A stretch of 64,000 nt of DNA from Lachnospiraceae bacterium JLR.KK002. GTDB lineage: Bacteria > Bacillota > Clostridia > Lachnospirales > Lachnospiraceae. Positions within the stretch are counted from its first letter, which is position 1; the number at the start of each line of letters is the position of its first letter. The notes beneath the pieces were generated by a model that saw nothing but the letters and a program-made list of their open reading frames with translations, was not told the DNA's origin and did not search any database. The position numbers and the translations under genes were made by a program. The DNA is taken from assembly GCA_036941025.1 (NCBI GenBank), contig JAYMNP010000001.1:992001-1056000 (forward strand), in the 5' to 3' direction. Below, in pieces: positions 12,371 to 26,597 of the stretch.

Positions 12371-12417
12371 TCAGAAACGATTAAACAGTTAAGCATATTT
12401 TGAAAGGAGTTTTTACC

Positions 12418-14433
12418 ATGCAGGAATTAGTAATCAGCATATTGCTGACAGTTGTTATTATAATGGCTGCTGTACTTCTTATTTTTGTCGGCAGCCGCAA
12501 GGATGGTATGACAAAAAAACAGAGGGTTATGATGATCCGTATTTTGATTAGCGCCGGAATCTTACTGGCACTCCAGTTTGTTTCAGCAGAGCTGTTTGAT
12601 AAGGCTGACAGTTATTTATTTCCGTCCGCAGGAAGGTGGATTCGTTTTGCGTGCTATCTGATAAATTATTTTATCATCGGATATGACATTTTAAGGAAAG
12701 CGGCAAAAGGCATCAGAAACCGTCAGGTATTTGATGAAAGTTTTCTGATGGCAGTGGCTACGATTGGGGCGATGGCGCTTGCTATTTATGAGAACGGTGA
12801 TTATCTGGAAGCGATTGCCGTTATGCTGTTTTACCAGATCGGGGAATGGTTCCAGGGCTATGCTGTGGGCAAGAGCCGCCGCAATATCAGTAACCTGATG
12901 GATATTCGTCCTGATTATGCAAATGTTGAGAGAAATGGGAAATTAGAGCAGGTTGATCCGGATGAGGTAGGGATTGGCAGCGTGATTGTTGTACAGCCGG
13001 GCGAGAAAGTGCCGATTGACGGCAATGTAGTTGAGGGATCTTCCAGCCTGAATACCAGCGCATTGACCGGGGAAAGTCTGCCCAGAGAGGCAAAAGTTGG
13101 TGATGAGGTAATCAGTGGATGTATCAGTATGACTGGAGTATTGAAGATACAGACAACAAAAGAATTTGGAGAATCTACGGTTTCTAAGATTTTGGATTTG
13201 GTGGAAAATGCAAGCTCCCGCAAATCAAAATCAGAAGATTTTATCTCGAAGTTTGCGAAAGTATATACTCCGGCTGTCTGCTACTCAGCATTGGCGTTGG
13301 CATTGCTTCCTCCAGTTGTCAGAATGCTTTTTATGGGACTGTCTGCTGATTGGGGTGTTTGGATTTACCGGGCATTGACATTCCTTGTTATCAGTTGCCC
13401 CTGTGCGCTTGTTATCAGTATTCCCTTGAGTTTCTTTGCAGGAATAGGAGGCGCAAGCAAAGAGGGCGTGCTGGTAAAGGGGTCCAACTATCTGGAAATC
13501 CTTTCACAGACCAGGTATGTTGTTTTTGACAAAACGGGAACGATGACAAAGGGTGTTTTTGAAGTAAATGGGATTCATCACTCCACCATAGACAATGAGA
13601 AACTGTTGGAATATGCGGCTCTTGCAGAGAGCGCTTCTTCCCACCCAATCAGCAAGAGCTTACAGCGGGCATATGGAAAAGAGATTGACAGAACCCGTGT
13701 GGCAGATATACAGGAAATCAGCGGAAATGGGGTGACTGCAAAAGTAGATGGCGTAAAGGTTGCCGCTGGTAATGACAAATTGATGAAGCACTTAAACATT
13801 CCTTATCAGGATTGTCATCAGACAGGTACGATTATTCACATGGCAATCAATGGGAAATATGCGGGACATATCGTAATCTCCGATATTATAAAGCCTCATT
13901 CTAAGGCTGCAATTGCGGAATTAAAGAAAGCAGGGGTAGATAAGACCGTCATGCTGACTGGGGATGCAAAGAAAGTGGCAAATCAGGTTGCCACATCACT
14001 TGGAATTGATGAGGTTTACAGTGAGCTTCTTCCGGCTGACAAGGTAGAAAAGGTAGAAGAACTTCTGCAGGTGAAGTTAGGCAAAGCAAAGCTGGCATTT
14101 GTTGGCGATGGTATCAATGATGCACCAGTGCTTTCCAGAGCGGACATAGGTATTGCTATGGGCGCAATGGGTTCAGATGCGGCAATCGAAGCGGCTGACA
14201 TTGTTCTGATGGATGACGATCCAATCAAGATAGCAAAGGCAATCAAGATTTCAAGGAAATGTCTGCGGATTGTTTACCAGAATATTTCGATGGCGCTTGT
14301 AGTGAAATTTGCCTGCCTTGTATTAGGGGCTGTGGGAATCGCAAATATGTATCTGGCTATTTTTGCGGATGTAGGTGTTATGATTCTTGCGGTGCTGAAT
14401 GCGATCCGCTGCCTGTTTGTGAAAAAACTGTAA
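12418..14433 (+). CDS. P1B-type heavy-metal ATPase, Zn/Cd/Pb-like
   Basis: 671 residues from ATG 12418 after AAAGGAGT. It exports metal ions using ATP. Motifs in order: TGESLPREA in the actuator domain, SCPCALVIS in the membrane metal site, DKTGTMTKG with the phosphorylated aspartate, SSHPISKS, and VGDGINDAPVLS. The CPC motif together with DVGVMILAVLNAIR in the last helix fits the Zn/Cd/Pb subgroup rather than copper pumps. There is no N-terminal metal-binding domain; the separate HMA protein probably serves. It is followed within 20 nt by a second ArsR gene and then FeoAB. Confidence 0.9.
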   Translation: MQELVISILLTVVIIMAAVLLIFVGSRKDGMTKKQRVMMIRILISAGILLALQFVSAELFDKADSYLFPSAGRWIRFACYLINYFIIGYDILRKAAKGIRNRQVFDESFLMAVATIGAMALAIYENGDYLEAIAVMLFYQIGEWFQGYAVGKSRRNISNLMDIRPDYANVERNGKLEQVDPDEVGIGSVIVVQPGEKVPIDGNVVEGSSSLNTSALTGESLPREAKVGDEVISGCISMTGVLKIQTTKEFGESTVSKILDLVENASSRKSKSEDFISKFAKVYTPAVCYSALALALLPPVVRMLFMGLSADWGVWIYRALTFLVISCPCALVISIPLSFFAGIGGASKEGVLVKGSNYLEILSQTRYVVFDKTGTMTKGVFEVNGIHHSTIDNEKLLEYAALAESASSHPISKSLQRAYGKEIDRTRVADIQEISGNGVTAKVDGVKVAAGNDKLMKHLNIPYQDCHQTGTIIHMAINGKYAGHIVISDIIKPHSKAAIAELKKAGVDKTVMLTGDAKKVANQVATSLGIDEVYSELLPADKVEKVEELLQVKLGKAKLAFVGDGINDAPVLSRADIGIAMGAMGSDAAIEAADIVLMDDDPIKIAKAIKISRKCLRIVYQNISMALVVKFACLVLGAVGIANMYLAIFADVGVMILAVLNAIRCLFVKKL

Positions 14434-14450
14434 GGAAGGAGGGGGTTCCT

Positions 14451-14771
14451 TTGACAGAATATCAGGATAGTCATTTTTCCAAAGAATTGAAGGAAAGTGA
14501 TTTGTATATATTAACGGAATTTTTCAAGGTGCTTGGGAACCCTACCCGTATCCGAATCCTGCTCCTTTTAATGGAGCAGGATTCATGTGTTGGTGATTTG
14601 GCAGAGCAGCTTGGAATTACGCAGTCTGCGGTGTCCCACCAGCTAAACCTTTTAAAGTCAAATAAGCTGGTGAGGCGGCGTAGGGATGGAAAAATGATCT
14701 TTTATACTTTAGTGGATGAACATGTGCAGATGGTTCTTGAAAAAGGAACAGAACACATTCTGCAACGGTAA
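14451..14771 (+). CDS. Second ArsR/SmtB-family regulator, CzrA-like
   Basis: 106 residues from a TTG start at 14451 with a strong AAGGAGGG ahead. Winged helix with ITQSAVSHQLNLLKSNK and the wing RRRRDGKMIFYTL. The last helix (VDEHVQMVLEKGTEH) keeps an aspartate and two histidines at CzrA zinc-site spacing, while the fourth ligand position is glutamine. It lacks the cysteine site of the first ArsR, so the two regulators probably sense different metals. Sandwiched between the exporter and FeoAB. Confidence 0.85.
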   Translation: MTEYQDSHFSKELKESDLYILTEFFKVLGNPTRIRILLLLMEQDSCVGDLAEQLGITQSAVSHQLNLLKSNKLVRRRRDGKMIFYTLVDEHVQMVLEKGTEHILQR

Positions 14772-14789
14772 AAATGAGGTGATGATAAG

Positions 14790-17171
14790 ATGACAATGGA
14801 TGAATTGAAGCCAAAGCAGAGCGCCTTTATCCGTTCCGTAGGAGGAACAGGCGCACTTCGGCATCACTTACTCGATATGGGGCTTACACCAAAAACGGAG
14901 GTTACGCTTCAAAAAATTGCACCTATGGGCGATCCGGTGCAGATTGAGCTAAGGGGATATGAACTGACATTGCGGCTTGATGAAGCGCAAAAAATCACAG
15001 TGGAGAAAGTCCATACAAAAGCGGAAAAAAACCATTCTACACAAAGGACAATGGCAGTGGAACATCCGGGAGTCGGTGAACTTGGAAGGGCGAACAGCTA
15101 TCATGTTCATAATGCAACGAATGAGATTCCAGAAGGTGCAAAGATTACTTTTGCGCTGGTAGGAAATCAGAACTGTGGAAAGACCACTTTATTCAATCAG
15201 CTTACAGGGGCAAACCAGCATGTAGGGAATTTTCCCGGAGTGACAGTTGACCGTAAAGATGGTACGATCCGCAAACACTCAGAGGCGGTTGTAACAGATT
15301 TACCAGGTATTTATTCCCTTTCCCCGTATTCCAGTGAGGAAATTGTGACAAGGGATTTTTTGATGGATACGCATCCGGACGGGATTATCAATATTGTTGA
15401 TGCTACCAATATGGAGAGGAATCTGTACCTTACCATGCAGCTCATGGAACTTGGCATTCCGATGGTGCTGGCATTGAATATGATGGATGAAGTCCGGGCA
15501 AACGGCGGCTCTGTCCGGGTAAATGCACTGGAAGAAATTCTTGGTATTCCGGTAGTGCCGATTTCAGCGGCAAAAAATGAGGGAACCACGGAACTGATTG
15601 ACCATGCACTTCATGTGGCGAGGCACAGGGAAAGTCCCGGTAGGGTTGATTTTTGTCCGGCAAGTAATAATGAACATGATTCCGTTGGTGCGGTACATCG
15701 GTGCATTCATGCGGCAATACATATATTGGAGCCGGAGGCAAAAGAAAAAGGGCTGCCAGTTCGCTTTACAGTAACAAAATTGGTAGAAAATGATCGCCTG
15801 ATGAAAGAGAAACTTACTATTGCGCCTGAAAAGGCTGACATATTTGAACATCTGGTTTCTGTATTGGAAACGGAAACAGGGCTTGACAGGGAGGCTGCAC
15901 TTGCAAATATGAGATTTTCATTTATTGAAGCTCTATGTGCAAAAACCGTAGTCCGCCCTCATGAAAGCAGAGAACACAAGCGCAGTATGGCGATAGACCG
16001 GATTTTAACAGGAAAATATACAGCGATTCCCTGTTTTATCGGGATTATGGCACTCGTATTTGTTATGACATTCAGCTTTATTGGTGCGGCACTGTCTGAC
16101 CTGATGGGTATGGGAATTGATATATTGATTGCTCTGCTTGATGGGGTACTTGCAAAGGCGCAGGTCAACCCGGTGGTTCATTCTCTCGTGATTGATGGCG
16201 TTTGCAGCGGCGTGGGAAGTGTACTCAGTTTATTGCCAACGATTGTTACCATGTTTTTCTTCCTTTCCATTTTGGAGGACACTGGATATATCGCAAGAGT
16301 GGCTTTTGTGATGGACAGGCTTTTTCGTAAGATTGGTCTTTCCGGAAGAAGTATAGTTCCTATGTTGATTGGTTTTGGCTGTTCTGTTCCTGCGATTATG
16401 GCTACCAGAACGCTTTCCAGTGAACGGGATCATAAGATGACAATTCTGTTGGTTCCATTTATGAGCTGTACTGCTAAGCTGCCAATCTACACACTAATGA
16501 TCAGTGCTTTTTTCCCAAGAAGCTATCAGGCGCTCATTATGGTTGGGCTGTATGCTCTGGGGATCATCTGTGGCATTTTATATGCGTTAATTTTAAAAGG
16601 GACGAAATATAAGGGAGCGCCGGTTCCCTTCGTGATGGAGCTTCCAAACTATCGGTTTCCTTCGGCAAAAAGCGTGTGGCAGCTTATCGTGGAAAAGGCG
16701 AAGGGCTTTGCTAAGAAAGCATTTACCATTATTTTTGTGGCTTCTCTTGTAATCTGGTTTTTACAGACCTTTGATATAAGGCTGAATGTTGCGGCTTCTG
16801 CGGAAGAAAGTCTTTTGGCATTGTTGGGCGGGGTGGTTGCTCCATTATTTGCACCGCTTGGATTTGGAGATTGGAGAGTTTCTACCGCATTGATTACCGG
16901 GTTTACTGCCAAAGAAAGTGTTGTATCTACGCTGACGGTTCTTTTGGGCGGGGATGTATCTTTGCTTGGAACACTGTTTACACCTTTTACCGCATTTGTA
17001 TTTCTTGTATTTACCTTGCTGTATACACCATGCGTTGCGGCGGTTGCAACTGTGAAACGGGAAATGGGCGGAGCTAAGGCGGCGGCTGGAACTGTAATCG
17101 TACAATGTGCAATCGCTTGGATTGTGGCATTTGCTGTTCACAGTGTAGGGGCTGCTGTTGGGCTTGTATAG
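14790..17171 (+). CDS. feoB: FeoA-FeoB fusion ferrous iron transporter
   Basis: 793 residues. Residues 1-75 are a FeoA (SH3-like) domain, normally a separate protein, fused to FeoB. The G domain begins at about residue 118 with VGNQNCGKTTLFNQL (G1), GNFPGVTVD, DLPGIYSLSP (G3) and LNMMDEV (G4). The membrane part has two Gate segments, with GFGCSVPAIMATR and FMSCTAKLPIY holding the conserved cysteines. It imports Fe(II). Its place directly after a metal exporter and two ArsR genes is unusual and couples uptake of iron with export of other metals. Confidence 0.93.
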   Translation: MTMDELKPKQSAFIRSVGGTGALRHHLLDMGLTPKTEVTLQKIAPMGDPVQIELRGYELTLRLDEAQKITVEKVHTKAEKNHSTQRTMAVEHPGVGELGRANSYHVHNATNEIPEGAKITFALVGNQNCGKTTLFNQLTGANQHVGNFPGVTVDRKDGTIRKHSEAVVTDLPGIYSLSPYSSEEIVTRDFLMDTHPDGIINIVDATNMERNLYLTMQLMELGIPMVLALNMMDEVRANGGSVRVNALEEILGIPVVPISAAKNEGTTELIDHALHVARHRESPGRVDFCPASNNEHDSVGAVHRCIHAAIHILEPEAKEKGLPVRFTVTKLVENDRLMKEKLTIAPEKADIFEHLVSVLETETGLDREAALANMRFSFIEALCAKTVVRPHESREHKRSMAIDRILTGKYTAIPCFIGIMALVFVMTFSFIGAALSDLMGMGIDILIALLDGVLAKAQVNPVVHSLVIDGVCSGVGSVLSLLPTIVTMFFFLSILEDTGYIARVAFVMDRLFRKIGLSGRSIVPMLIGFGCSVPAIMATRTLSSERDHKMTILLVPFMSCTAKLPIYTLMISAFFPRSYQALIMVGLYALGIICGILYALILKGTKYKGAPVPFVMELPNYRFPSAKSVWQLIVEKAKGFAKKAFTIIFVASLVIWFLQTFDIRLNVAASAEESLLALLGGVVAPLFAPLGFGDWRVSTALITGFTAKESVVSTLTVLLGGDVSLLGTLFTPFTAFVFLVFTLLYTPCVAAVATVKREMGGAKAAAGTVIVQCAIAWIVAFAVHSVGAAVGLV

Positions 17172-17393: not shown

Positions 17394-17828
17394 TCAGTTA
17401 TCTGTCTGACCTGTTTTTGTGTGATACAGTTCGATTATATCCTGTAAAGAAATGCTGGACATATGTTTTTCGGTTCCTTTTTGTATTTCGTTGTAGTAAT
17501 CCTGCAGAGCCAGTTGGATATTAACCCCTACTCCGCATTCCGGATTGGTGTGGGTGTCCAGATGAAGAAGCGGCTTACTTCCCTCAACAGCTTTATAAAT
17601 ATCCAAAAGTGTGATTTCCTCTGTGGGTTTTGCCAGGGAAGGCTTTGCATGACCGTTTACGCTGGACATCAATCCTGCCTTTTTCAATTTCATCATGATC
17701 TGTCGGACAAAAGCCGGGTTTGTCTGAATACTGTCAGCAATTACAGTGCTGCTTAGGTCATACTCCTGATGGATTGCAATAAAAGCCATGATATGCACTG
17801 CGTCACTTAATTTTGTAGAATATTTCAT
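17394..17828 (-). CDS. Rrf2-family transcription regulator
   Basis: 144 residues with the winged-helix layout of Rrf2: YSTKLSDAVHIMAFIAIHQ, a recognition helix in QTNPAFVRQIMMKLKKAG, and the wing region SSVNGHAKPSLAKP. Only one cysteine lies in the segment where IscR or NsrR hold an iron-sulfur cluster, so a canonical cluster is unlikely and another signal is probable. The gene is divergent from the sirtuin operon and shares with it a promoter region bearing a near-perfect dyad, making it the likely regulator of that operon. Confidence 0.85.
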   Translation of the reverse strand: MKYSTKLSDAVHIMAFIAIHQEYDLSSTVIADSIQTNPAFVRQIMMKLKKAGLMSSVNGHAKPSLAKPTEEITLLDIYKAVEGSKPLLHLDTHTNPECGVGVNIQLALQDYYNEIQKGTEKHMSSISLQDIIELYHTKTGQTDN

Positions 17829-17867
17829 GAAAAACTCCTTTGCTGTAAATTTAATTTTAACAGCCGC

Positions 17868-17927
17868 TTGACTTGTTATATGGATAGTGCTATACTTCTA
17901 ACTGGTTGTTATTTATATAATAACAAC
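17868..17927 (+). promoter_or_regulatory. Promoter and dyad operator of the sirtuin operon
   Basis: TTGACT at 17868-17873, 17 nt, TATACT at 17891-17896. Immediately downstream, 17905-17927 is a 23-nt dyad with arms GTTGTTAT and ATAACAAC. A protein bound there would block promoter clearance. The neighbouring Rrf2 regulator is the obvious candidate. Confidence 0.65.
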
Positions 17928-17976
17928 AAATAGGATAAAAGTCAATAAAAAGAGTTGAAAGGAAAAGAAAGCAAAC

Positions 17977-18855
17977 ATGAATCGAAAATATGATAAAAAA
18001 GCGGAGATTCTGCTTGAACAGATGGAGTGGGCAGAAGCTGTCTGTGTAGGAGCGGCTGCGGGAATGTCTGTTGCTACTGGTTATGATATGGCATATCACA
18101 GCGATAAATATTTCAAGAAATATTTTGGAGAATTTGAAAAAAAGTACGGGTTTCAGGGGAGCTTTAACGGATATTATTACCCATACCCGACCAGTGAAGA
18201 ACGCTGGGCATTTCTGGCGACCTCCATCCATGCAAATCTGGAGCTTCCGGACGGCCCTGCCTATGAAAATCTGTTTGAACTTCTGAAAGGAAAGAATTAT
18301 TTTGTGGTGACAACCAATCAGGACACCTTATTTAGCAGACGCTTTCCGGAAGAAAGAGTCAGTACCATTCAGGGAGATTTCAGATGGCTTCAGTGTGTGC
18401 GTCCCTGTCATGACGAGCTGTTTGAAAGTAAAAGTATGATTGAGGAGATGTATGCAAATATAAAGGACTGCCGGATTCCTACAGAATTGATTCCGCACTG
18501 TCCGAAATGTGGAAGGGAACTGGAGCCGTGGGTTCGAGGCTACACGTTTTTGGAAGGCAGAAAATATAAAGAGGAATATGAAAAGTGGAATCATTTTCTG
18601 ATGGAAAATAAACATAAAAAAATACTTTTTCTGGAACTTGGAGTGGGGCGCATGACGCCCATGTTCATTCAGCAGCCCTTTTGGAATATGACATACTCCC
18701 TGCCGCAAGCCTATTACATTACAATCAACCCAAAAGATGCACTGCTTCCAAAGGAGTTAGAAGGAAAAGGAACTGCGATAAAAGAGGATATTGCAGTGGT
18801 TCTGGAAAGAACAGTTGAAAAAATAAAAAAATATGGTGCAAAGAATGAAGAATAA
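17977..18855 (+). CDS. SirTM-like sirtuin 1
   Basis: 292 residues. Sirtuins use NAD to deacylate or ADP-ribosylate proteins, releasing nicotinamide. Visible: GAAAGMS at 25-31 (NAD loop), TTNQD at 112-116, the catalytic position as Q132-G133 instead of His-Gly, and a zinc site with Cys 140, 144, 175 and 178. The Gln in place of His, and the LELGVGRMTP segment, are marks of the SirTM class, known for protein ADP-ribosylation. Unlike known SirTM operons, no macrodomain, GcvH-like or lipoate ligase gene is nearby. First of three paralogues. Confidence 0.85.
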   Translation: MNRKYDKKAEILLEQMEWAEAVCVGAAAGMSVATGYDMAYHSDKYFKKYFGEFEKKYGFQGSFNGYYYPYPTSEERWAFLATSIHANLELPDGPAYENLFELLKGKNYFVVTTNQDTLFSRRFPEERVSTIQGDFRWLQCVRPCHDELFESKSMIEEMYANIKDCRIPTELIPHCPKCGRELEPWVRGYTFLEGRKYKEEYEKWNHFLMENKHKKILFLELGVGRMTPMFIQQPFWNMTYSLPQAYYITINPKDALLPKELEGKGTAIKEDIAVVLERTVEKIKKYGAKNEE

Positions 18856-19723
18856 AGAAAATCTGGAACTCCTGGCAGAAAAAATCCGTCAGGTAGATGC
18901 AGTTGTGATTGGGGGTGGTTCCGGGCTTTCCAGCGCAGCAGGCTATAATCACTACCATTGGATGCCTTATCTGGAAGGACAGTTGCAGGATTTTAAAGAA
19001 GTATATGGCTTTCAATCTCCCTTTGCAGGATTTTATTATTGCTATTCTTCACCGGAACAACAGTGGGCATATTACGCACGTTATATACAAAGTCTGTGGG
19101 ATGCTCCAACGGGGCAGACCTATTATGACTTGGCGGAAATTGTAAGTGGAAAAGAAGTATTTGTATTAACAACCAATGTGGATATGCAGTTTGAACGGGT
19201 ATTTCCCCAAAATTCTATTTGCAGTTATCAGGGGAATGTGGGCTATTTTCAATGTAGCCAGCCCTGCCATGACCGGATTTATCCGAATGAGAACATCATC
19301 CGGGAGATGTGTGAAAATATGCTGGGGATGCGGATACCTTCGGAACTGCTTCCAAGATGCCGGGAATGTGGACGGATCATGGTTCCGTGGGTAAGAGATG
19401 ATACGTTTCTGGAGGGGCAGGACTGGAAAGATGGTGTAATACGCTACGAATCTTTTCTGAAACAATATCTGACAAAAGAAAATGCAAAAAGCGTTTTGCT
19501 GCTGGAATTAGGGGTAGGAGAAATGACGCCAGGTATTATTAAATTGCCCTTTTGGGAAATGGCATATAAAAATACAGGTGCTTTTTATGTCTGTATGAAT
19601 CAGGAAGATTCTTCTTCCCCGGAGCATTTGAAAAACAAAAGCCTGTATATAAATGATGATTTATTGAAAACCTTACGGGATTTAAAACAGATTATGAAAG
19701 GAAAGGCAGGGACAGGAAAGTGA
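18845..19723 (+). CDS. SirTM-like sirtuin 2
   Basis: 292 residues from ATG 18845, chosen because the N-terminus then aligns with its paralogues; ATG 18833 is possible. The start overlaps the preceding stop by 11 nt. NAD loop GGGSGLS at 23-29, TTNVD at 109-113, Q129-G130 at the catalytic site, zinc cysteines 137, 141, 172 and 175, and LELGVGEMTPG near the C-terminus. It is the most canonical SirTM of the three and the best candidate for an active ADP-ribosyltransferase. Substrate unknown. Confidence 0.85.
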   Translation: MKNKENLELLAEKIRQVDAVVIGGGSGLSSAAGYNHYHWMPYLEGQLQDFKEVYGFQSPFAGFYYCYSSPEQQWAYYARYIQSLWDAPTGQTYYDLAEIVSGKEVFVLTTNVDMQFERVFPQNSICSYQGNVGYFQCSQPCHDRIYPNENIIREMCENMLGMRIPSELLPRCRECGRIMVPWVRDDTFLEGQDWKDGVIRYESFLKQYLTKENAKSVLLLELGVGEMTPGIIKLPFWEMAYKNTGAFYVCMNQEDSSSPEHLKNKSLYINDDLLKTLRDLKQIMKGKAGTGK

Positions 19724-20559
19724 ATGTATATCAGAAAATAAAGCAAATCATCAGTGAAGCTGACGGGGTGTTGATCGGAGCCAGCAACGGATTATCCATA
19801 GCAGAGGGGTATCATTTATTTGCGGATGATGCGTGGTTTCGTGAAAGAATGGGTGATTTCAGGGAAAAATATGGTATTTACTGTATTTTGCAGGGGATGG
19901 CTGTTTCCTATTCTTCCGAGGAAGAAAGATGGGCATATTTCAGCCGGATCATCAAAGAAAAGTGTTTGCAGGATGAACCGACGCAGATTATGAAGGATAT
20001 GTATGAACTTGTAAAGGAAAAGGATTATTTTGTGGTCATGTCCAATGGGGAGGATCACTTTATCCCGGCAGGTTTCGAGGAAGAACGTGTATTTGAAATG
20101 GAAGGCAAGCTGACAGAAATGCGTTGCACAAAGGGCTGCTGTGATGATGTTTATTCGGACAGGGAGGCAGTTCTTCGCATGGCAGAGGCGGAAACAGATG
20201 GCAGAGTGCCGGAAAGACTTTTGCCCAGATGCCCAAAATGCAGTGGGAGTATGGAAGTAAATTATGGGGAGTACTCCTCTTTTCAGGGGAAAAAGAACTG
20301 GCAGGAAAAAGCTGCCCGCTATCAGGGATTTGTAAATCGTATGCATGGAAAAAACCTTGTCATTTTAGAGTTTGGTGTTGGCTGGCGCAATCAGATGATA
20401 AAAATGCCATTTATGCAGCTTACGGCAGCAGAACCTCATGCAAAGTATATTACTTTCAACAAAGGTGAGATTTACATTCCTGACGGGATACAGGAAAAGT
20501 CCATTGGTGTGGATCAGGATATTGCAGCGGCGTTGCGTGAAATCGTGAAAGCGGGGTAA
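19720..20559 (+). CDS. SirTM-like sirtuin 3, altered active site
   Basis: 279 residues from a GTG start that overlaps the previous stop by 4 nt (GTGA). The zinc cysteines remain (136, 140, 171, 174), but the NAD-binding TTNxD motif has become MSNGED at 107-112 and the catalytic Gln is Glu128. The NAD loop is GASNGLS. This pattern suggests a fold kept for structure or regulation, or a changed activity, rather than simple decay, because the frame and zinc site are intact. Possibly a regulatory or substrate-binding partner of sirtuins 1 and 2. Confidence 0.8.
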   Translation: MNVYQKIKQIISEADGVLIGASNGLSIAEGYHLFADDAWFRERMGDFREKYGIYCILQGMAVSYSSEEERWAYFSRIIKEKCLQDEPTQIMKDMYELVKEKDYFVVMSNGEDHFIPAGFEEERVFEMEGKLTEMRCTKGCCDDVYSDREAVLRMAEAETDGRVPERLLPRCPKCSGSMEVNYGEYSSFQGKKNWQEKAARYQGFVNRMHGKNLVILEFGVGWRNQMIKMPFMQLTAAEPHAKYITFNKGEIYIPDGIQEKSIGVDQDIAAALREIVKAG

Positions 20560-20563
20560 GGCT

Positions 20564-21676
20564 ATGCAGGAAAAATGGATGGAGGGATTACCGGAATGGA
20601 AACGGATAAAACCTGTATTTGATAAGTGGAATGATATTCTGGAAAATCAGGTTACGTTTACATTGGAGGACAGTGAAAAGCACACAGGCGCACATTGCAG
20701 GCGTGTAATGCTCTACGCATTAGCAATCGCACAGCGTCAGGGGTTGCCGGAAGAAGATAAGGATATATTGGGAGCTGCTGCGGCATTTCATGATTCCAGA
20801 CGGCTGGATGACTGGCTGGATGTTGGACATGGACAGCGTGCGGCAGATTATTATCGGGAATATTGTGTATCCCATGAACTGGAGTTTAAACAGAAGTGCT
20901 ATGATATTATTTATTATCATGATCGTGACGACCAGACTGGAATTGATGTCATTTCAGGAAGGAGTCCATTGGAGCAGAATAGAGCGGTGCTTTACAAGAT
21001 TTTTAAGGATGCAGATGCATTGGACAGATTCCGTCTGTCCGCCAATGGACTGGATATAAAATTTTTAAGGACAGAGGAAGCAAAAGGGATGGTAACTTTT
21101 GCAAAGAATTTAATCTGTCAAATGCAGGGGATAAAACCTGTGGAAAGTCCTGACTGCTATCTGATTGTCGTAGATATGCAGAATGATTTCGTATCAGGGG
21201 CACTTGGAACAAAAGAAGCGGAATCCATTGTAAATGCTGCTGCAAAAAAAGCCAGAGAATATCCCGGTTATGTGTTTTTTTCAATGGATACCCATACAGA
21301 AGATTATCTTTTTACTCAGGAAGGAAAGCTGTTGCCAATAAAGCATTGTGTAGCTGGCACAAAAGGATGGCAGTTAGTACAGGAGCTGGCAAAGGTGCAG
21401 GCGGAACGAAACGGAGCAGTATATTATAAGCCAACATTCGCATCGCAGCGACTTGCGGAGGATTTGAGGGAAATCCACAAAGAGCAGTCCATAAAGGAAA
21501 TTGAACTGATTGGGCTTTGTACGGATGTATGTGTGATTTCCAATGCTCTCTTACTAAAGGCATATATGCCGGAAGTGCCAATCTATGTGGATGCATCCTG
21601 CTGTGCGGGAATTACACCGGATAAACACAGGGCGGCATTACAGACGCTGGAGAGCTGCCATATCATGAAAAGATAA
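20564..21676 (+). CDS. HD-domain and nicotinamidase fusion protein
   Basis: 370 residues, starting 4 nt after sirtuin 3. Residues 1-190 form an HD phosphohydrolase-like domain: H44, HD at 76-77, HG near 89, YYHDRDD at 117-123, KDADALDR at 148-155. Residues 195-370 form an isochorismatase-fold nicotinamidase: D204 in VVDMQNDF, DTH at 242-244, PIKHC with H261, K289, and C323 in GLCTDVCVIS. Catalytic Asp, Lys, Cys and metal ligands are all present. It should hydrolyse nicotinamide, the sirtuin by-product and inhibitor, to nicotinate. The HD domain substrate is unknown. Confidence 0.88.
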   Translation: MQEKWMEGLPEWKRIKPVFDKWNDILENQVTFTLEDSEKHTGAHCRRVMLYALAIAQRQGLPEEDKDILGAAAAFHDSRRLDDWLDVGHGQRAADYYREYCVSHELEFKQKCYDIIYYHDRDDQTGIDVISGRSPLEQNRAVLYKIFKDADALDRFRLSANGLDIKFLRTEEAKGMVTFAKNLICQMQGIKPVESPDCYLIVVDMQNDFVSGALGTKEAESIVNAAAKKAREYPGYVFFSMDTHTEDYLFTQEGKLLPIKHCVAGTKGWQLVQELAKVQAERNGAVYYKPTFASQRLAEDLREIHKEQSIKEIELIGLCTDVCVISNALLLKAYMPEVPIYVDASCCAGITPDKHRAALQTLESCHIMKR

Positions 21677-22438: not shown

Positions 22439-23656
22439 TTAGATTTCTTCGGCTTCTGCAAGCGTAGAAAGATATTCCTTTACCCGACCGTAATAAATGC
22501 GGAGGAACTTGTTTGCCCCGGCAGTCATGTAGACGTAGTAAGGCTTGCCCTGTGCCCGTTTCTTATCCATAAAGGCGTAAACGGCATCATCAGCGGGGGA
22601 ACGCTTGATAAGCCCGTCCATGATTTGGAAGAGGGTCTTGCGAAGATAAGGAGAGCCTTTCTTTGTGGCAGGCACACTTTTACGGACACGCTGCCCGGAT
22701 TCATCCCTTCCGGGGTCGACACCTGCAAAAGCGGTCAGCGCCCCGCGGTGCGTGAAGTGTGTAACATCCCCGATTTCAGCCATAAGCTGTGGGCCAAGCG
22801 TGGGACCGACACCATTCATTGCCATGACAACCGGGTATTCCGGCAGGGTGGCGGCAAGCCCATCCATTTCAAGGCGGAGGGATTCCACGGTTTCGGATGC
22901 AGTGTCCAGCATCGTTACAGCCTGCCGTATCAGCATCTTTGTGTTATTATCTTTTGGGAATACGGCAATCAGGTCAGATGAGAGACGGTAGATTTTCTCC
23001 GCCTTGTCTGCACTGAAGTTATAGCCTTTGCGCCTGCACCAGTTCTGATAATGCACGGTAAAGGCCTTTAAGGATTTCGAGCGGACACAGTCCACATGCC
23101 AGTAGGTATGGATGAAATCCACCCATTTCTGGCTGCCGTCGCTGCGGGCCGGGCTGTCAAAGAAGTCATTGGCACCCGGGTAAGTCTGGTCGAGCAGGGC
23201 AATAAGGTTGTTCTTCATGGCAGTCTTTTGCGCCATGTAGAAGCCGAACTGCCGGTTCATTGTCTTTAGTTGGTTGCGTGTTTTATCCATGTTTCCATAT
23301 TGGCGCAGTTTGGACCAGCGGTCAAGGGTATAGCGGGCGATTTTTTTAGAATCAGCCTTGTCGGTTTTGGGAGAGCGCAGGGAATCGTCCCCGAAGTCTT
23401 TGATGAGGATGGGATTTACCGCACTGACGAAGATACCGGCGTCGGAAAGCCATGTGGCGACCGGCTCGTAATACCTTCCGGTGTGCTCCATGCAGACCTT
23501 TGTCTCCCCGTCAAGCCCCTGGATCTGTTCAATCAGGGCGTTGATTTCGGACTGCGTGTGTGGAATGTCACGGGGAGGCATGATAACGACATCCCCGGAT
23601 CTGCGGATGGTGACAGTGCTCTTGCCTTTGGAAACATCAATACCAACAGCGTTCAT
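22439..23656 (-). CDS. IS110-family DEDD transposase
   Basis: 405 residues from the ATG at 23656, favoured by AAGGAGT upstream. IS110 enzymes use a RuvC-like DEDD domain and a serine in the C-terminal Tnp domain. Visible: VGIDVSKGKS (first D), KVCMEHTGRYYE (E), SPKTDKADSKKIARY (D), and AFAGVDPGRDESGQR near the C-terminus holding the conserved Ser. Full length, so potentially active. It lies beside a truncated cassette gene. Confidence 0.92.
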   Translation of the reverse strand: MNAVGIDVSKGKSTVTIRRSGDVVIMPPRDIPHTQSEINALIEQIQGLDGETKVCMEHTGRYYEPVATWLSDAGIFVSAVNPILIKDFGDDSLRSPKTDKADSKKIARYTLDRWSKLRQYGNMDKTRNQLKTMNRQFGFYMAQKTAMKNNLIALLDQTYPGANDFFDSPARSDGSQKWVDFIHTYWHVDCVRSKSLKAFTVHYQNWCRRKGYNFSADKAEKIYRLSSDLIAVFPKDNNTKMLIRQAVTMLDTASETVESLRLEMDGLAATLPEYPVVMAMNGVGPTLGPQLMAEIGDVTHFTHRGALTAFAGVDPGRDESGQRVRKSVPATKKGSPYLRKTLFQIMDGLIKRSPADDAVYAFMDKKRAQGKPYYVYMTAGANKFLRIYYGRVKEYLSTLAEAEEI

Positions 23657-23870
23657 AACAGGTACTCCTTTGTAATGTATTAGCAATGGTCAATACCAGT
23701 TTTCCCATTGCCTGTTCAATCTACTGGGTATCACACGAACGCCTTTAGGTTCAACCTGCGTAAAACGAATGCTGCGAATGAGGGCTGGTTGGCTGACTTT
23801 TTTACGGACGCTAAGTCCTGAAAGGAGGAGGCCAGACCTATTGCCTTACTCATTCTAACAGCTTAAGCAA
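23657..23870 (-). ncRNA. Possible bridge RNA region of the IS110 element
   Basis: About 215 nt of non-coding DNA precede the transposase start on its own strand. In characterised IS110-family elements, the non-coding end upstream of the transposase encodes a structured bridge (seek) RNA that chooses target and donor sites. Position and length fit. Local complementarity is present but a fold was not computed, so boundaries are approximate. Confidence 0.4.
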
Positions 23871-25771: not shown

Positions 25772-25955
25772 CTGTCCTGACAGAGAAAGCCGGATAATGG
25801 GATGGAATTGCAGGCATGCTGCAGGAAGTAAGTTTCCCTGTAATCCTGCCCCTTTATCTGGCAGCATATCCAAACATGGAAAAGAACCTGAATCAACTAT
25901 GATACCGGAATATATATTATAACTCTGAACCATGAAAGAAAGGGAGGGAAAGATT

Positions 25956-26597
25956 ATGAGCCATACAGAACAGAAAATAACCGCTGCTATTTACTGCAGG
26001 GTAAGCACCAGGGAGCAGGCGGAAGAAGGCTACAGTATCGGGGAGCAGGAGCGTCTGATAAGGGAATACTGCATGAAGCAGGGCTATGAAGTCTACAAGG
26101 TCTTTTCTGACGCCGGAATCAGCGGAAAAGACATTGCCCACAGGCCAGCCATACAGGAACTGTTAAAAGAAGCCGCAGAAAAGAAGTTTGATATCGTGAT
26201 GTCATGGAAAATCAACCGCTTAAGCCGGGAACTGGAAGACGCCATAAAGATTGTGAACACGCTGGACAGATACGGGATAGCTTACCGCTCTTATTCCGAG
26301 CCTTTTGAATCCGATATACCGGCAGGGAAAATGCAGTTCCAGATGATGGCATTGGTGGGGGAGTTTGAGCGAAATACCATTGCACAGAATGTAAAAATGG
26401 GGATGAAAGCCAAAGCCCGTGCAGGGGAGTGGTGCGGAGGGATTGCGCCTTTGGGTTACCATTGGGTTCCTATGGAGGGAACGGAAGATTTCCGTAATTA
26501 CCCGCAGGGTAAAGGCATATGCGGCCACAACAGGAAGTGGGAAAACTGTGCCGCAGATTATGCTGCAGGGAAACCGGGTCAGGAAATGGGGATTTGA
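25956..26597 (+). pseudogene. Serine recombinase, cut after the catalytic domain
   Basis: From ATG 25956 after AGGGAGGGAAAG. About 170 residues are a normal resolvase catalytic domain: AIYCRVSTREQAEEGYSIGEQ with the nucleophilic Ser, MSWKINRLSREL, and MMALVGEFERNTIAQN. The recombinase domain stops after about GIAPLGYHWVP, where the sequence becomes the 3-prime end of a SymE-like gene read in another frame, and a stop follows. Large serine recombinases need their C-terminal DNA-binding parts, so this one is probably inactive. It is unlike the recombinase at 4376 in sequence, so it came from a different lineage. Confidence 0.8.

Follow-up and report, generated by a model that had tools for sequence, protein, structure and literature searches.

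Sirtuins of the SirTM type (class M) are defined by their macrodomain partner (PMC4518038), and GcvH-L was their only known target as of 2024 (PMC11490716). The operon described here lies in the gut bacterium Lachnospiraceae bacterium JLR.KK002, in a window of 64,000 nucleotides, i.e., the whole stretch of DNA that was analysed (C1:992001-1056000, where C1 is contig JAYMNP010000001.1; the genome comprises 4.28 Mb in 5 contigs). A divergent Rrf2 gene stands opposite a run of four genes, sirA, sirB, sirC and a gene for a fusion of an HD domain with a nicotinamidase (window 17394-21676), and this set is related to SirTM but recurs without the macrodomain. We read the operon as a module for SirTM-like ADP-ribosylation that is induced by stress, does without a macrodomain and is coupled to recycling of nicotinamide adenine dinucleotide (NAD), and give this reading about an even chance. 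Its genes are as follows, in window coordinates.

17394-17828, minus strand: rrf2, SifR/YwnA-like regulator (PF02082, E 1.4e-29) with one Cys (residue 98, in NPECGVG)
17977-18855, plus strand: sirA, SirTM-like sirtuin with the Asn/Gln/Arg catalytic set and a Cys4 zinc site, assigned from the match to 5a3a, a residue census of relatives and its clade
18833-19723, plus strand: sirB, SirTM-like sirtuin, a lineage-specific extra paralogue overlapping sirA, with a second in-frame ATG at 18845
19720-20559, plus strand: sirC, with a GTG start and a 4-base overlap with sirB; separate clade, Gln changed to Glu (residue 128), Arg192 lost, motif GVGxRN(Q/R)
20564-21676, plus strand: HD-nicotinamidase fusion gene, starting 4 bases past sirC
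20564-21133, plus strand: HD half of the fusion (PF01966), with the pattern H...HD...H...H...D and invariant columns
21146-21676, plus strand: nicotinamidase half of the fusion, isochorismatase-fold (PF00857, E 1.2e-25; matches in the PDB include 1ilw and 3o90)

An original prediction, made from the letters of this stretch, had described three tandem sirtuins followed by the fusion, with overlapping genes, and the open reading frames are indeed arranged in this way, overlapping or 4 bases apart. It had also stated that macrodomain, GcvH-like and lipoate ligase genes are absent from the operon, and none of them appears in the gene list or in the Pfam search.

The recurrence of the set was followed in three samples. 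An HD alignment of nine rows was scanned over the species collection and gave 348 relatives, of which the best 80 were used for all counts of HD loci; these are partly dependent, since L126-L128 are near-copies, L104 and L106 belong to one genome, and many are contigs of metagenome-assembled genomes of differing length. SirTM-like genes were found in 51 of the 80 loci (SirC in 50, SirA together with SirC in 48) and no sirtuin in the other 29. SirC lies at most 100 bases from the HD gene in 43 of its 50 loci, and the carriers of the core include Bacillota, Bacteroidota and Pseudomonadota; in soil Bacilli such as Neobacillus drentensis and Lederbergia lenta, HD is a protein by itself. The exceptions were L094, with SirA and SirB without SirC, and L132 and L139, with SirC without SirA (the SirC of L139 is in fragments). 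SirA, SirC and HD make up the conserved core, to which SirB and the fusion are added in certain lineages. The check proposed with the original prediction, whether the genes co-occur elsewhere without macrodomain genes, had a positive outcome for this core (macrodomain in none of the 51 loci), whereas three sirtuins plus the fusion had to be given up as the defining set, SirB being present in 12 of the 51 loci and the fusion in few.

Since the first loci had been picked by HD similarity, a second sample of 190 genomes was drawn from the family around G306 and searched with SirC and HD profiles. SirC was found in nine genomes at 479-490 bits, the next match being at 250 bits. In all nine another SirTM-like match directly adjoins it, and the HD family (at least 237 bits) is present in seven of them, each time directly downstream of SirC; G306 itself was chosen for having the operon, and without it the counts are eight for SirC and six for HD. 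No HD family member was found at E≤1e-20 in the 181 genomes without SirC, and G326 has an additional partial HD match elsewhere in its genome. In a draw of 291 genomes from the class, the HD profile at E 0.001 matched 105 genomes, with only G000 and G014 over 200 bits (next 107); SirC adjoins HD in both, fragmented in G014, and two of 291 is a small number. Among the matches listed from the open-access literature, taken as titles and beginnings of abstracts with preprints and subscription papers outside the scope, no description of the operon was found, and a prior mention cannot be excluded.

A further observation concerns the macrodomain. No macrodomain match was found within 6 kb in the 51 loci with HD and sirtuin, compared to 17 of 20 SirTM comparison regions, and the predicted absence of a macrodomain from the company of the operon holds. 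The comparison regions were taken from places matched in a SirTM-related genome search, and some of them are short. The three without an adjoining macrodomain gene were the fourth SirTM of the same genome as the window (L062), the HD locus of G014 (L063), and L066. The sole macrodomain match among the 80 HD loci was in L129, a locus without sirtuin. In the family draw, eight genomes without SirC had another SirTM match, at 237-249 bits, and a macrodomain gene adjoins it in seven; in the eighth (L208) the contig stops where that gene would be expected, 136 bases past the sirtuin on its downstream side. GcvH was looked for in the window's own genome only, where no match to PF01597 was found, and if this is a true absence GcvH-L cannot be the target there. 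A protein with a nicotinamidase related to that of the window fused to a lipoate-protein ligase was observed (P0090); as a link to lipoate it was rejected, its ligase part having no match in the 100 loci L062-L161.

All three sirtuins stay below the Pfam SIR2 cut-off of 24 bits (14.8, 13.0 and 18.0 for SirA, SirB and SirC), and over the own genome SIR2 gives one match elsewhere and misses all three, so the family model is too narrow here. Against the solved SirTM of S. pyogenes, 5a3a, SirA gave E 1.3e-44, its best match in the PDB, and a SirC profile of 38 rows gave E 4.1e-63, in agreement with the predicted sirtuin identity and SirTM kinship. Each of the three has four Cys, and the catalytic position reads Gln, Gln and Glu in SirA, SirB and SirC. 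A Cys4 site with the catalytic His replaced by Gln or Glu had been foreseen, and both replacements are present; however, this is not loose variation, as Gln and Glu divide two clades in alignment and tree. The catalytic Asn and Gln (QG for HG) were found in all 55 SirA rows and all 11 SirB rows, and the equivalent of Arg192, placed by alignment, in 52 and 10 of them. Among 51 SirC rows, Glu (EG, not QG) and the catalytic Asn were found in 49 of 49 readable rows, the remaining two being gapped, and the partner of Arg192, again by alignment, in 0 of 42 readable rows. The SirC motif is mostly GVGxRN(Q/R) and nearly invariant, whereas the comparison SirTMs mostly have GVGxNTP. Of the 120 best SirC homologues, which are top scorers of 1,418 and thus a sample leaning towards SirC, 119 have the Glu, 120 the Asn and 116 the new Arg. 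In a maximum-likelihood tree of 131 rows, SirA (52 rows, support 96), SirB (12, 90), SirC (47, 100) and the classic SirTMs (20, 80) are each separated by one branch, with SirC as a distinct clade; the support values are from the Shimodaira-Hasegawa-like approximate likelihood ratio test in a quick search, in which the program warned of long branches. The AlphaFold2 model of SirC has a mean predicted local distance difference test (pLDDT) score of 92.9. Three proteins (P0121, P0122 and P0123) are single chains of 458-460 amino acids, which combine SirC residues 1-232 with another sirtuin part that by eye resembles SirA.

From these residues, SirC would be either an active Glu variant or a regulatory subunit. 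In the S. pyogenes enzyme, changes of Asn118, Gln137 or Arg192 strongly lowered activity, and a change of Gln to His abolished it (PMC4518038). Two of these residues, Gln137 and Arg192, are lost in SirC, with Arg missing from every one of the 42 readable rows, and SirA accompanies SirC in 48 of 50 loci, as would be expected if SirC were catalytically dead and served SirA only as a structural or sensing subunit. The near-invariant new GVGxRN motif looks like active-site selection rather than decay, and so does the retention of Asn and Glu, which are kept throughout the readable rows and, among the 120 best homologues, in all (Asn) and in 119 (Glu). We put a dead SirC at not far short of an even chance; it fits either of the readings of the HD enzyme considered below.

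The fusion matches the Pfam HD family PF01966 with 28.7 bits (cut-off 22). Invariant residues in this part are His40, His44, His76, Asp77, His89, His119, Asp149, Asp151 and Asp154, in alignments of 47 and 51 rows, and departures in a larger HD set were broken or gapped rows. Candidate metal ligands among them would be His44, His76, Asp77, His89, His119 and Asp149/151/154. The pattern H...HD...H...H...D is present in the HD family of the operon, and six ligands of this arrangement mark a two-metal HD site (PMC8177086). Sequence and profile searches of the PDB with the HD part gave weak matches to the HD superfamily only, with best profile E-values of 0.00038 (9 rows) and 0.037 (47 rows), and the search of PHROGs gave nothing firm for the HD part. 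The whole fusion was modelled with a mean pLDDT of 94.5. Fusions of HD and nicotinamidase occur in two lineages, the nicotinamidase halves of L143, L145 and L149 having 28-31% identity to that of the window. A SirB-HD fusion in L121 is one open reading frame matching the window proteins with 264.6 and 174.5 bits in phmmer; Pfam names neither half, and the call rests on the phmmer scores. An Rrf2-HD fusion was found in P0085. Its suggested action on a product of the ADP-ribose or nucleotide kind is plausible, though unproven, for the HD enzyme of the operon. Gut Clostridia are strict anaerobes, and as many carriers belong to them an oxygenase role of HD was rated unlikely. The same six-residue pattern is also found in the oxygenases MIOX and PhnZ (PMC8177086).

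The nicotinamidase half scores 91.1 bits against PF00857 (cut-off 27). Asp204, Lys289 and Cys323, which we take to be the nicotinamidase triad, and Asp242, His244 and His261, presumably the metal site, are invariant in 51 rows of the fusion alignment. As far as the site goes, the original prediction of a complete nicotinamidase was right. Within 6 kb of the anchor gene, nicotinamidase-type genes were found in 27, NAPRT in 21 and NadE in 6 of the 51 loci, compared to 0, 1 and 0 of the 20 comparison regions. Representative neighbours scored well over the family cut-offs: NAPRT 910.6 bits with NF006697 (cut-off 776), its short form 338.4 with TIGR01514 (269.55), and NAD synthase 169.5 with TIGR00552 (63.65). 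The isochorismatase-fold neighbours are of the nicotinamidase kind by family, and their substrate is putative. Two annotated plasmids, of Mesobacillus foraminis and Paenibacillus sp. 37, have the order SirA, SirC, HD, NAPRT, isochorismatase-family hydrolase, in Mesobacillus foraminis with a small Spo0E-type gene ahead of the hydrolase. The own genome has NAPRT at C1:2590875 and a second nicotinamidase-type match at C1:102260. The fusion had been predicted to remove released nicotinamide, a compound which inhibits sirtuins (yeast; PMC4751566). That nicotinamide is dealt with still seems probable, but since NAPRT and NAD synthase genes adjoin other copies of the operon, recycling is suggested rather than mere removal.

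The Rrf2 protein of the window has a single Cys, residue 98, which is kept in all 21 aligned Rrf2 rows, 12 of them with further non-conserved Cys. In the SifR/YwnA class the single conserved Cys is C102 in SifR and C97 in YwnA; SifR binds TGTAA-N9-TTACA, and quinone modification of C102 leads to release from DNA (PMC9218516). Two operator-like TGT(T/A)A-N9-TAACA sites flank the predicted sirA promoter:

17844-17862, no strand assigned: operator-like palindrome 1, TGTAA-N9-TAACA, from a pattern search
17868-17896, plus strand: sigma-70-like promoter of the sirtuin operon, TTGACT-N17-TATACT, a consensus match only
17907-17925, no strand assigned: operator-like palindrome 2, TGTTA-N9-TAACA, with perfect 8-base arms GTTGTTAT/ATAACAAC at 17905-17927

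The pattern TGT[TA]A-N9-11-T[TA]ACA occurs at 32 sites in 22 regions upstream of rrf2, with 0.14 expected from base shuffles, a ratio inflated by related loci, and 19 of the 22 regions have at least one operator-like site. With one conserved Cys and this type of operator, the operon Rrf2 resembles the SifR/YwnA regulators. Rrf2 regulators were found within 6 kb in 21 and HxlR regulators in 22 of the 51 loci, and in 2 and 6 of the 20 comparison regions, so that the type of regulator does not separate the two kinds of loci. The HxlR representative is closest to redox_TF_RrpA, with 134.5 bits (below the cut-off of 185).

From the gene set, the residues, the co-occurrence and the missing macrodomain at the loci we infer a course of events, every activity, the inducer and the target included. 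Judged by family and motifs, the Rrf2 repressor would sit on the two palindromes around the promoter and be released once an oxidant or electrophile has modified its conserved Cys. By analogy with SirTM chemistry, the two sirtuins with retained SirTM catalytic residues, SirA and SirB, would together with SirC put NAD-derived ADP-ribose on a target other than GcvH-L. The nicotinamidase half, the site of which is present, would hydrolyse the released nicotinamide, which inhibits other sirtuins, to nicotinate, to be returned to NAD by NAPRT, NadD and NadE; genes for NAPRT and NadE are found within other copies of the operon. Least certain is the last step, where the HD enzyme of the two-metal type, in place of the classic Zn-macrodomain, might process the ADP-ribosyl or nucleotide product.

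Several observations weigh against this reading. SirA and SirB have GVGxMTP or similar forms where the published motif is GVGx[NT]TP. HD phosphohydrolases typically have an Arg three residues ahead of the first metal His (PMC8177086), and no conserved Arg was found at about this place in the operon's HD family, Arg47 coming after His44. No nicotinamidase-type match was found within 6 kb in 24 of the 51 loci and no NAPRT in 30, and the HxlR-type regulators also stand near comparison regions (6 of 20). The HD-nicotinamidase gene is cut or split in three near relatives by DNA. These near relatives are gut genomes: L083, labelled uncultured Eubacterium, with 98.9% identity over 3,718 bases, L084, Schaedlerella arabinosiphila, with 96-97%, and L152, Acetatifactor muris, with 92-97%. 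In L083 and L084 the identity to the window ends at window 21018, with the contig of L083 ending about 250 bases further on; in L152 the gene consists of two open reading frames of 115 and 272 amino acids, whereas the window copy is a single open frame. Furthermore, HD is missing in two of the nine SirC genomes of the family draw, G387 and G478, which have SirA and SirC and neither HD nor macrodomain match within the 11 kb read, and HD as a strict marker of the system was softened for this reason. To these are added the 29 of 80 HD loci without nearby sirtuin, four of which comprise HD, nicotinamidase and NAPRT, so HD need not serve ADP-ribosylation.

Such loci (L137, L143, L148 and L149) are the main support for an NAD-economy operon, in which HD would be a salvage or clean-up hydrolase of nicotinamide nucleotides (e.g., nicotinamide mononucleotide, nicotinic acid mononucleotide, NADP or damaged NAD(P)H), the sirtuins would sense or regulate salvage, and ADP-ribosylation would not be undone by HD. 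HD with nicotinamidase alone in L145 and with NAPRT alone in L133, the fusion of HD to two different nicotinamidase lineages, and SirA-SirC without HD in G387 and G478 point the same way. This explanation is rather doubtful in our judgement, as it leaves unaccounted that HD was met in none of the 181 family genomes without SirC at the threshold given, that SirB and HD are fused in L121, and that HD and macrodomain occur together in none of the SirTM-like loci read.

The own genome also has an unlinked macrodomain gene of the Zn type, i.e., the SirTM-linked type, at C1:3609485 (L174), and the surrounding 15 kb that were read showed no sirtuin; its fourth SirTM gene, of the classic type, stands at C1:1802577 with no macrodomain match beside it. 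PF01661 was searched genome-wide in 46 genomes, i.e., those of 48 of the 51 loci and the own genome with three not included, several of them incomplete assemblies. A macrodomain was present in 28 of the 46, and with that of the own genome this makes an eraser in trans possible, a further point against the proposed module. The operon could then be an ordinary SirTM/Zn-Macro system of which the macrodomain has moved elsewhere in the genome. We regard this as improbable, given that 18 of the 46 genomes (incomplete assemblies among them) gave no macrodomain match and that in the tree the classic SirTMs are separate from SirA, from SirB and from SirC.

The original prediction had also raised a defence role. 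Some bacterial sirtuins deplete NAD against phage (cited via PMC9503650), and an IS110-family transposase and a resolvase-type recombinase lie downstream of the operon, at window 22439-23686 and 25932-26597. A module depleting NAD against phage is nevertheless very improbable, and the suggestion found no support: the sole PADLOC match was weak (PprRE for SirA, E 0.053), a search of 50,697 phage records gave no match for the HD part, the regulators at the flanks belong to redox types, and nicotinamidase, NAPRT and NadE rebuild NAD. The 12 HD relatives from viral contigs have 29-35% identity, and their loci contained no match to a sirtuin; nothing in favour of defence came from PADLOC, the phage records or the viral contigs.

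Other neighbours were observed. The operon is adjoined at window 12400-17171 by a P-type ATPase gene, identified by Pfam on the L087 copy, and by genes judged ArsR-like and FeoB-like by eye; the same neighbourhood was seen in several Clostridia (L082-L084, L087, L089, L091, L092 and L152), on either side of the operon. In L092 pieces of a fumarate-reductase-like flavoprotein and an Fe-S protein stand between SirC and HD (L092:6627-8969), and in L087 a gene for a CbiA-type ATPase and a DUF3786 gene stand behind the Rrf2 gene. Downstream of four Bacteroidota copies (L120, L125, L130 and L160) there is a gene of one and the same cluster, the L160 member of which matches Fic/DOC.

In this recurrent set the residues of the sirtuins are retained and the macrodomain is gone, and its additions are a partner sirtuin, an HD enzyme and NAD salvage. 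A candidate for a new enzyme of ADP-ribose processing comes with it, as does a class of sirtuins in which Glu occupies the catalytic position. We tentatively go further, with distinctly less than an even chance, to a second type of SirTM-like system, in which an obligate SirA-SirC pair, SirC being a new catalytic-Glu class, would be combined with HD replacing the Zn-macrodomain as eraser or product processor and with regeneration of NAD on site. Compared with the described SirTM/class M systems with Zn-macrodomain (PMC4518038; PMC11490716), the operon shares the sirtuin kinship, QG for HG with catalytic Asn and Arg in SirA and SirB, and a redox-linked regulation. It differs in that no macrodomain, GcvH-L or LplA2 gene adjoins it, in the usual presence of at least two paralogues including the EG-type SirC, in the motifs GVGxMTP or GVGxRN where those systems have GVGx[NT]TP, and in that an HD enzyme, often accompanied by NAD salvage genes, stands in place of the missing partners. 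With the single-Cys Rrf2 class of SifR and YwnA (PMC9218516) its regulator has in common the conserved Cys near residue 98 and operators of the TGTAA-N9-TTACA type, although it adjoins a sirtuin operon, additional non-conserved Cys occur in some relatives, and the inducer is putative. The HD part has the H...HD...H...H...D pattern of two-metal HD enzymes, e.g., YqeK (PMC8177086), but shows no clear kinship to them beyond the HD superfamily, and the phosphohydrolase Arg is not at its usual place. Finally, the nicotinamidase half shares the fold family and the invariant site residues with PncA; unlike PncA, it is fused behind an HD domain and encoded together with sirtuins.

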